Origin: Sphingopyxis sp.
Lineage (GTDB): Bacteria > Pseudomonadota > Alphaproteobacteria > Sphingomonadales > Sphingomonadaceae
Length of the DNA stretch: 64,000 bases
Reading direction: 5' to 3'
Assembly (NCBI GenBank): GCA_030145715.1
Contig: JAIXHQ010000002.1
Location: forward strand, 124,001 to 188,000
Of the stretch, positions 16,125-56,405 are shown in pieces (positions within the stretch are counted from its first letter, which is position 1; every line of letters begins with the position of its first letter). A model generated the notes under the pieces. That model made no database searches. It saw only the letters and a list, made by a program, of their open reading frames with translations, and was not told where the DNA came from. Both the position numbers and the translations under genes were made by a program.

Positions 16125-16164
16125 TGCGAACCAGTCGCATCTTTCCTGTTGCGAATCCGTCGCA
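16125..16164 (+). promoter_or_regulatory. Two tandem Fur-like boxes upstream of bfd
   Basis: Two palindromes TGCGA-N5-TCGCA at 16125-16139 and 16150-16164, exactly 25 bases apart (about two and a half helical turns), 38 and more bases before the bfd ATG. The genes that follow are iron genes (bfd, bfr). The motif resembles Fur-type boxes of sphingomonads as I know them; the palindromes and spacing are seen directly. Confidence 0.6.
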
Positions 16165-16201
16165 CTATCCCTACATCAATCTTGTTGAGAAGGATTCGCA
16201 C

Positions 16202-16375
16202 ATGGTCGTCTGTGTCTGCAACGCAATAAGGGAAAGTCAACTGCGCGATGTCGCGCGCGATGGCCAATTGCGGTGCGCCAAGGCGGCCTATGCGCAATTG
16301 GGTCGCAAACCCAAATGCGGACAATGCCTGCCTTTCGCTCGCAATATCATCAGCGACGTCGCCACGACCGCCTGA
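16202..16375 (+). CDS. bfd: Bacterioferritin-associated ferredoxin
   Basis: 57 residues from ATG 16202. The four cysteines C4, C6, C39 and C42 (MVVCVCNAIRE ... KPKCGQC) form the BFD-type [2Fe-2S] site. Bfd reduces bacterioferritin haem so stored iron can be released. It lies 100 bases upstream of bfr on the same strand, and two Fur-like boxes precede it, fitting induction in low iron. The ORF track's start at 16124 would run through those boxes and is unlikely. Confidence 0.95.
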   Translation: MVVCVCNAIRESQLRDVARDGQLRCAKAAYAQLGRKPKCGQCLPFARNIISDVATTA

Positions 16376-16475: not shown

Positions 16476-16958
16476 ATGAAGGGCGACGAAAAGGTCATCG
16501 ATTTTCTGAACGAGGCGCTCAAGAATGAGCTGACCGCGATCAACCAATATTGGCTGCATTATCGGATGCTCGACAATTGGGGCGTCGCGCGGCTCGCGCA
16601 TTTCGAACGCGAAGAATCGATCGACGAAATGAAACATGCCGACAAGCTGGCCGATCGCATTCTCTTTCTGGGCGGCCTGCCCAATTTCCAGATGCTCGGG
16701 CGCCTGCGCGTCGGCGAAACGGTCGAGGAAATCCTGAAGGCCGATCTGGCGCTGGAGGAAGAGGCGATCCCCTTGCTCAAGGATGCGATCGCCCATTCCG
16801 AAAGCGTGCGCGACTATGTCAGCCGCGACCTGTTCGCCGACATTCTCGAAAGCGAGGAACATCATGTCGACGAACTGGAAAAGCAGTTCGAGATGATCGA
16901 GCGCATGGGTCTCCAAAATTATGTGCAGCTCCAGTCGAAGCCCGTCAGCGACGAGTGA
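16476..16958 (+). CDS. bfr: Bacterioferritin
   Basis: 160 residues, a full-length four-helix ferritin. All ferroxidase ligands are at canonical places: E18, E51, H54, E94, E127 and H130. M52 (DEMKHAD) is the haem-binding methionine, so this is a true haem bacterioferritin and not a non-haem ferritin. It forms a 24-mer that oxidises Fe(II) and stores it in the cytoplasm. AGGAC precedes the ATG. bfd lies just upstream and a strong terminator just downstream. A TATAAT promoter of its own allows separate control from the Fur-like sites of bfd. Confidence 0.97.
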   Translation: MKGDEKVIDFLNEALKNELTAINQYWLHYRMLDNWGVARLAHFEREESIDEMKHADKLADRILFLGGLPNFQMLGRLRVGETVEEILKADLALEEEAIPLLKDAIAHSESVRDYVSRDLFADILESEEHHVDELEKQFEMIERMGLQNYVQLQSKPVSDE

Positions 16959-17001
16959 TTCGGCACAGCGGGCCAAAAGCCCGGCCTAAACCATTGATAC
17001 A

Positions 17002-17028
17002 AGGGGCGCTTTCGGGCGCCTCTTTTTT
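17002..17028 (+). terminator. Rho-independent terminator of bfr
   Basis: Eight-bp stem AGGGGCGC / GCGCCTCT (one G-T pair) with a six-base loop and a run of six T, 44 bases after the bfr stop. Confidence 0.85.
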
Positions 17029-17038
17029 CGCTTGTATT

Positions 17039-17053
17039 TGCGACTAATTCTCA
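17039..17053 (+). promoter_or_regulatory. Third Fur-like box
   Basis: TGCGA-CTAAT-TCTCA, one mismatch from the TGCGA-N5-TCGCA palindromes before bfd, directly after the bfr terminator and upstream of a terminator-like hairpin and a small hypothetical gene. Confidence 0.45.
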
Positions 17054-17079
17054 ATAGCACGGTCGGGCAGTCCCCTCTT

Positions 17080-17128
17080 GCCGGCCGCTGCAACTTGAAG
17101 TTGCACTTCAAGGCGGCCGGCATCTTTT
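17080..17128 (+). ncRNA. Terminator-like hairpin; candidate small RNA or attenuator
   Basis: Nine-base arms GCCGGCCGC/GCGGCCGGC enclose a perfect 17-base palindrome TGCAACTTGAAGTTGCA, followed by ATCTTTTTC. Since bfr already has a terminator at 17002, this second structure must act on a transcript starting between them, near the Fur-like box at 17039. Such a transcript would be about 70-80 nt. It could be a short iron-responsive RNA or a leader attenuator of the gene at 17176. The ends are guesses. Confidence 0.35.
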
Positions 17129-17175
17129 TCAAAAATGGGACGGACGGACTGCATGGGCCGGGAGAGACGAACCTG

Positions 17176-17595
17176 ATGCAAGGCAGCACGCTGATCCGCC
17201 AATTGACGCAACAACCGCTGGTGCGCGACCTGTCGGTCGAAGCGGCGCAGGCGGTGCTGGCGCTGCGCTATTGCATCCTCTGCCGCCGCAGCGAACGCGA
17301 CCCGATGCCCGAACTCGAACGACGCTGGGGCAATATTCTCGCGGCGCGCCGTTACCGCCTGGTGGTCGAGGCGATCGGCCATGTCTGGCCCGATCCGTTC
17401 GCGGTCGCCCCGCCCTGTTGCCCGCGCGTCAGTTTCGACGAGGCGCTGCTCGCCGCGATCGTCGGCGCCGCCGCCCACCGCGACCGTGCCGGGTTCGACC
17501 GGCTGACCGCCGAAATGCTGGGCAGCGACGCGCGCGAGATGCTGTTCGTCGCGCTGGAAAACTTCATCCGCGCCCGGGCGCCCGGCCCCGTTTGA
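17176..17595 (+). CDS. Hypothetical protein, possibly iron-linked
   Basis: 139 residues from ATG 17176 with GGAGA nearby; the ORF track start at 17032 runs through the hairpin region. It appears soluble and helical with two cysteine pairs, YCILC and PPCCP, and conserved-looking segments RRWGNILAARRYRLVVEAIGHVWPDPF and EMLFVALENFIRARAP. I do not recognise a family. A Fur-like box and an attenuator-like hairpin precede it, and bfd-bfr are adjacent, so an iron role is possible, but that is inference from position only. Confidence 0.7.
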   Translation: MQGSTLIRQLTQQPLVRDLSVEAAQAVLALRYCILCRRSERDPMPELERRWGNILAARRYRLVVEAIGHVWPDPFAVAPPCCPRVSFDEALLAAIVGAAAHRDRAGFDRLTAEMLGSDAREMLFVALENFIRARAPGPV

Positions 17596-53484: not shown

Positions 53485-53732
53485 ATCTTCCCATGCCTTG
53501 CGGTGCCCCCGCCCGCAAGCCGTCCGAAGGCCTCACAAGATATGCCGCTCCCGTTTGTCGGGCGAATTGTCCGCGACGACGCCGTAAACCTCCCCACCCC
53601 CTTGCAATTCCATGGGTCGGGCGTAAGGCGGCGCCAACATAAACCTGCGCGTGCGACTCCCGCTGGCCCCGCTCTCCCGCTTTGCCACCGGACGGTCATT
53701 CCCCGCCGCGCCAACATGGGGACTGCAATCCT

Positions 53733-56405
<2,673 letters not shown>

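Follow-up and report, generated by a model that had tools for sequence, protein, structure and literature searches.

The region between bfr and a hypothetical gene in a Sphingopyxis genome most probably (at a probability of roughly 0.8) encodes a lineage-specific iron-sparing small RNA that would be repressed by Fur, would follow the logic of RyhB without being related to it, and would be made by transcription termination within a leader. The window, i.e., the whole stretch of 64,000 nucleotides that was analysed, corresponds to G000:C2:124001-188000 in the Sphingopyxis genome G000. An iron-repressed small RNA with the RyhB logic had been proposed in the first-pass annotation of this DNA, and conservation, the Fur box, and the predicted targets now make it the best explanation of the element. 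The conservation, the covariation of the terminator, the identity of the box, and the conserved complementarity with its co-occurrence with the element were computed; we infer the transcript and its exact start, the binding of Fur, the repression of acnA and sodB, and any dependence on Hfq.

Location and Conservation of the Element

The features of the locus and of the predicted target lying in the same window are as follows.

16202-16375 (+): bfd, bacterioferritin-associated ferredoxin (Pfam Fer2_BFD, E 7.5e-07; NCBIfam NF007803 match below the cut-off)
16476-16958 (+): bfr, bacterioferritin (NCBIfam TIGR00754, 220 bits, above the cut-off)
17001-17024 (+): intrinsic terminator of bfr (terminator scan; kept 5' of the element in most relatives)
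17032-17060 (+): putative promoter, from conservation (-35 TTGTAT at 17032-17037, 17-nt spacer, -10 TAGCAC at 17055-17060)
17038-17056 (+): predicted Fur box TTGCGACTAATTCTCAATA within the promoter spacer (conservation; weight-matrix matches elsewhere)
17066-17129 (+): predicted small RNA of ~64 nt, 5' seed and terminator (covariance model R1; alignment of 72 sequences)
17067-17084 (+): invariant block GCAGTCCCCTCYTGCCGG (position counts; exact 18-mer almost confined to Sphingopyxis in GTDB)
17080-17121 (+): terminator hairpin (RNA fold; covariation)
17080-17088 and 17113-17121 (+): outer arms of the hairpin, GCCGGCCGC and GCGGCCGGC (sequence)
17094-17101 and 17105-17112 (+): inner extension of the hairpin, CUUGAAGU and ACUUCAAG (sequence)
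17125-17129 (+): T run (T5) closing the predicted small RNA (invariant in the alignment of 24 sequences)
17176-17595 (+): downstream gene, 139 aa (67-142 nt 3' of the invariant block)
53718-53726 (+): predicted target site GGGGACTGC over the acnA ribosome-binding site (perfect complement of nucleotides 2-10 of the RNA)
53733-56405 (+): acnA, aconitate hydratase, an Fe-S enzyme and predicted target (NCBIfam TIGR01341, 1349.6 bits, above the cut-off)

The first-pass annotation had placed the feature at 17039-17128. A real element was found there, but its extent, with the promoter included, had to be corrected to 17032-17129. The transcript envisaged at that time, 70-80 nt long and starting between 17030 and 17080, was close to the RNA of ~64 nt at 17066-17129 that conservation suggests; here the start at 17066 was placed by conservation and the end is that of the T run. 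The intrinsic terminator at 17001-17024 agrees with the earlier statement that bfr is already terminated at 17002.

In a first strict search, the invariant block was found within reach in 24 of the 30 bfr-containing loci from relatives. The covariance model R1 was built from these 24 loci and gave strong matches in 74 of the 80 genomes of the genus; in one of the six genomes without a match (G032), bfr lies at a contig end. When the same model was applied to a sample of 251 genomes of the family, no convincing match was obtained outside the genus, and the weak ones were mostly 38-47 bases long. The one near-full-length match whose sequence was read (L055) was rejected, as it proved to be a different palindromic sequence. 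The exact 18-mer likewise came almost only from Sphingopyxis records of GTDB. The 15-nt core GCAGTCCCCTCCTGC is unchanged in 73 distinct loci except for two single substitutions, one of which is that of the window itself.

In most genomes bfr precedes the element, whereas in several the element lies elsewhere. It is thus not the adjacency to bfr that is conserved but that to the downstream hypothetical gene, which always adjoins the element, even where bfr is elsewhere. The spacer to this gene has a median length of 51 nt (24-97 nt). No open reading frame had been annotated between the Fur box and the hairpin, and this held: the frame from TTG at 17032 is open through the whole region, but the lengths of the hairpin and of the spacer vary by non-multiples of 3 among relatives, and therefore the block is not coding. 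The coding reading was rejected, as the reading frame is not kept among relatives.

Putative Promoter and Fur Box

All 24 aligned sequences agree at the CTTG and TAGCA columns, which are spaced constantly. Across 73 loci, the -35 TTG and the -10 TAGCA with the 17-nt spacer are nearly invariant, and the stretch from the -10 element to the block is variable. The Fur-like box of the first-pass annotation is conserved and overlaps this putative promoter. For the Fur-repressed iron-sparing small RNAs as a class, the overlap of a Fur box with the promoter is a defining trait, and the predicted box shows it, being conserved and situated in the 17-nt spacer.

A Fur weight matrix was built from the element and scanned over 2.4 Mb of a relative. 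Matches were found before feoAB and two TonB receptor genes of the haem and siderophore types, as well as near a cysteine desulfurase gene and in the bfd region. In the related Sphingobium SYK-6, boxes of this kind are bound by Fur ahead of feoA and of TonB receptor genes (PMC7376174). Fur therefore very likely controls the promoter of the predicted small RNA.

Two further Fur-like boxes were seen just 5' of bfd in the window, at 16148-16169 and 16181-16202 (13.6 and 16.1 bits), and one of them has a counterpart at the same place in the relative G388. By its boxes, bfd is probably controlled by Fur, too.

Terminator Hairpin

The second GC-rich hairpin with a T run, as described in the first-pass annotation, was confirmed with arms at 17080-17088 and 17113-17121 and with T5 at 17125-17129. 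The folding of the RNA from 17060 to 17132 gave -33.9 kcal/mol (z = -3.7), and none of the 200 shuffled sequences folded as well. Covariation of the hairpin in relatives had been named as a check; when this was run, the arms of the terminator were found to covary, 4 of the 9 pairs being changed on both sides, a score reached by none of 500 shuffles. In the alignment, 99.5% of the cells of the terminator pairs are paired, and in the divergent genome G424 the inner stem is completely re-paired. Together with the strong matches in most genomes of the genus, this covariation places the feature beyond chance.

The 17-base palindrome described inside the hairpin is present in the window (TGCAACTTGAAGTTGCA at 17089-17105), but it is peculiar to this genome. 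As a functional element it was rejected, because the inner part is wholly missing in 10 of the first 24 relatives. It should be noted that the T run has just 5 nt, which is short for an Hfq-type small RNA.

Complementarity to the acnA and sodB Ribosome-Binding Sites

The sequence GGCAGTCCCCTCTTGCCGG occupies 17066-17084, that is, G17066 and the invariant block. The 5' part of this block, together with G17066, is predicted to be single-stranded and to act as a seed. The 5' end of the RNA, GGCAGUCCCC, has its complement in GGGGACUGC, the ribosome-binding site of acnA; in this genome that site lies 36 kb away from the element. Both acnA and sodB, the genes for aconitase and iron superoxide dismutase, are classical targets of other Fur-controlled iron-sparing small RNAs.

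The 13-nt seed was compared with 2108 predicted gene starts of the relative G388. In this unbiased scan acnA came 15th, its Shine-Dalgarno (SD) sequence being covered by GGGGACTGC, 9 nt that match perfectly; the ranking by seed energy over all 2108 starts was overall no better than that of shuffled seeds. The sodB gene was found in a separate list of gene starts bearing the non-SD part of the complement, with GGAGACTGCC directly before the ATG. Here, GACUGCC directly adjoining the AUG is complementary to the 5' end of the RNA. Against shuffled target windows, the duplex energy was significantly better for both acnA (p = 0.001) and sodB (p = 0.002).

Both sites are kept with the element and are absent without it. 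In the acnA leaders, ACTG is invariant in all 46 element-bearing genomes compared (35 distinct leaders), preceded by GGGG in 39, GGGA in 6, and GGGAA in 1, at a distance of 3, 6, 7, or 8 nt from the ATG. Seven leaders with GGGAACTG or GGGAAACTG have a mismatch to the seed that is uncompensated in the small RNA. ACTGC is absent from the acnA site in all five close relatives that lack the element, and the sodB site is missing from the same five. The sodB pattern GACTGCC|ATG occurs in 59 of the 74 element-bearing genomes, including the most divergent ones, and is unmatched in the other 15. A sodB pattern match in G150, a genus genome without the element, was rejected as a chance match.

The sodB and sdhB counts, and the acnA counts across the family, are presence/absence counts of a pattern. 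Among 201 genomes of the family, the acnA pattern was found only in the three that carry the element (198 of 198 others lack it); the acnA gene as such was present in 99 of 101 genomes. The sodB pattern was likewise confined to the same three element-bearing genomes, with 0 of 198 others, where the pattern requires a PLPYA-like N-terminus and the denominators outside the genus are therefore inexact. As the element and the sites are confined to one clade, shared ancestry alone could explain their co-occurrence; this is the main weakness of the case. Its strength is that two unrelated genes have an exact complement of the seed at the functional position in those genomes that possess it.

The first-pass annotation had supposed that the RNA silences the adjacent bfr and had named complementarity to bfr and to other iron-protein mRNAs as a check. 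The bfr half of this idea found no support, and the conserved predicted targets are acnA and sodB instead. At the ribosome-binding site of bfr, a 6-nt GGACTG chance match drifts freely among 30 relatives, and in some genomes the element lies away from bfr, which was therefore rejected as a target and can be used as a negative case. Pairing energies against shuffled target windows were not significant for sdhB, bfr, or sufE. On this ground sufE was rejected, as was sdhB as a third target, since its ACTGC site is present in 23 of 80 genomes and missing in this one.

Several other observations were made at these sites. In the acnA leader at 53690-53732, TTCCCCGCCGCGCC is kept upstream of GGGGACTGC, and perhaps a UCCCC:GGGGA hairpin over the ribosome-binding site is a regulatory element of the aconitase mRNA in its own right. 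Part of the conservation of the acnA site may come from this hairpin, which covers neither ACTGC nor sodB. In G388, a gene for a 190-aa membrane protein matching Urate_ox_N (PF06181) has GGGGGAACTGCC directly before the ATG (L318:17890-18459, minus strand) and, by this match, is possibly a further target. A glyoxalase-superfamily gene of the same genome (L227:9928-10335, plus strand) has a perfect GGGGACTGC at -13.

Proposed Mechanism

With iron present, Fur on 17038-17056 would block the promoter, as its box and position suggest. With iron absent, transcription would start at about 17066 and mostly end near 17129, where the hairpin and its T run would stop it. The product would be an RNA of ~64 nt composed of the 5' seed GGCAGUCCCCUCY and the terminator; an unpaired 5' end ahead of a terminator is the simplest layout of a small RNA. 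The seed would pair with the ribosome-binding sites of acnA and sodB and block their translation, and the scarce iron would be spared from aconitase and Fe-superoxide dismutase. Some transcripts would read through into the 17176 gene, the promoter being common to both.

The protein encoded by this gene (139 aa) is all-helical, carries the motif WPxxxxxxxPCCxxxSxDE, and has an AlphaFold2 model with a pLDDT of 91. No match was found in Pfam, NCBIfam, or among PDB folds, and identity with any Pfam or NCBIfam family or PDB relative was rejected in spite of the confident model. In other genera of the Sphingomonadaceae, its homologues have a Fur-like box directly 5', mostly without a terminator between the box and the start. 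The Fur promoter would therefore be ancestral to the gene family, and the Sphingopyxis leader would consequently have gained the invariant block and the terminator. Because the spacer leaves little room for a second promoter, the 17176 gene must be fed by read-through from the Fur promoter. In G150, a different GC-rich hairpin with C-rich loops and no clear T run was seen between the Fur box and the homologue of the 17176 gene (L037).

A leader with two outputs is possible. In a fuller form, which we put forward tentatively and hold to be clearly less probable than the small RNA itself, one Fur promoter would give either the small RNA or, by read-through, an all-helical iron-stress protein, and the ratio would be set by pairing of the seed with its own distal leader. 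The small RNA would have arisen in the leader of an ancestral Fur-regulated gene at the root of the genus, with acnA and sodB gaining their sites in the meantime, and the RyhB circuit would thus have been invented independently in the Alphaproteobacteria.

Alternative Explanations

The strongest rival is a cis-acting attenuator. The element would then be the leader of the Fur-regulated 17176 gene, termination at 17129 would be relieved by a signal, e.g., one stabilising a 5' hairpin GGCAG-UCCCCUC-CUGCC that has bases in common with the terminator stem, and the short RNA would be a by-product. That the 17176 gene follows the element without exception, including the loci where bfr is elsewhere, fits well with such a leader, as do the Fur-like boxes directly 5' of the gene family in other genera and the letters GCAG...CUGC, which could make a hairpin of 4-5 bp. 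However, this hairpin would reach about -7.6 kcal/mol against -20 to -30 kcal/mol for the terminator and overlaps the base of the stem only. A conserved, mutually exclusive antiterminator of comparable stability was not found at the loci compared, nor was a leader peptide. Stretches of at least 7 nt that are complementary to the 5' end occur in 30% of the distal leaders versus 7% in shuffles, an enrichment, but many loci lack them, and a conserved long-range pairing between these two parts of the leader was rejected as far from universal. As attenuation would also leave the matching acnA and sodB sites unexplained, we consider it improbable. The suggestion of the first-pass annotation that the hairpin attenuates the 17176 gene thus stands in so far as the Fur promoter belongs to this gene family in the Sphingomonadaceae and read-through is expected, but not as to a conserved antiterminator.

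The conserved block could also be bound, as DNA or as RNA, by a protein (a second transcription factor acting just past the start, or an RNA-binding protein), in which case acnA and sodB would be complementary to it by coincidence or through a shared binding site. The stem letters GCAG/CUGC never covary, which indicates that the sequence itself is constrained, and the GACTGC motif of acnA and sodB could serve the same protein. Nevertheless, the mRNA sites are exact reverse complements of the block and not copies of it, as base pairing predicts, and they are located on ribosome-binding sites, so that a protein site appears very improbable. The idea that the element only completes a double terminator, its Fur box being degenerate and without any part in regulation, is hardly credible in spite of its place after the bfr terminator and its hairpin of the terminator type, since promoter, box, and block are invariant genus-wide and the element travels with the downstream gene, not with bfr.

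Comparison with Known Small RNAs

Iron-sparing control of aconitase and iron superoxide dismutase by a small RNA has long been known in E. coli. We know of no such circuit found in Caulobacter, the best-studied relative. In the openly accessible papers that were searched, no report of such an RNA in sphingomonads was found. If the small RNA reading is true, a sphingomonad genus would have an iron-sparing circuit with named targets and a 13-nt seed, and an iron function would be attached to the unnamed protein family of the 17176 gene. The clear clade boundary, which includes close relatives without the element, would make the birth of a small RNA regulon from a Fur-regulated leader directly testable.

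The element resembles RyhB (RF00057), PrrF, NrrF, and MrsI in that the promoter of a short, terminator-ended RNA is overlapped by a Fur box, and in the predicted silencing, at low iron, of acnA- and sodB-type mRNAs at the ribosome-binding site. In contrast to RyhB and its analogues, it lies at a different locus and would have only ~64 nt, with the seed at the very 5' end. A search of Rfam gave no sequence or structure match to any family at the element, and membership in the RyhB family RF00057 was rejected, as its covariance model did not match here even at E values of up to 10. The targets common to such iron-sparing small RNAs have been noted (PMC9410917). FsrA of Bacillus subtilis and IsrR of Staphylococcus are alike in being Fur-repressed and in pairing a C-rich stretch with the Shine-Dalgarno regions of iron-enzyme mRNAs (PMC9410917), whereas their sequences and hosts are unrelated, and the Sphingopyxis RNA would have a single 5' C-rich seed with a GCAGU extension outside the SD complement.

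RusT of Caulobacter crescentus is likewise an alphaproteobacterial small RNA of iron starvation. This RNA of 118 nt is encoded between lolA and xth under the control of NtrYX, has no Fur box, and mainly targets transporters (PMC11005374). Identity with RusT was rejected because of the different neighbours and regulator and the strong Fur box at the Sphingopyxis element. SuhB (RF00519), a small RNA of Sphingopyxis granuli with 61 nt, is conserved in Sphingopyxis (PMC6563040) and is thus similar in both length and distribution. Identity with SuhB was rejected as well, since RF00519 has no match at the element and the member of this genome lies at G000:C12:50527-50600. Several weaker RF00519-like matches were seen in each relative.
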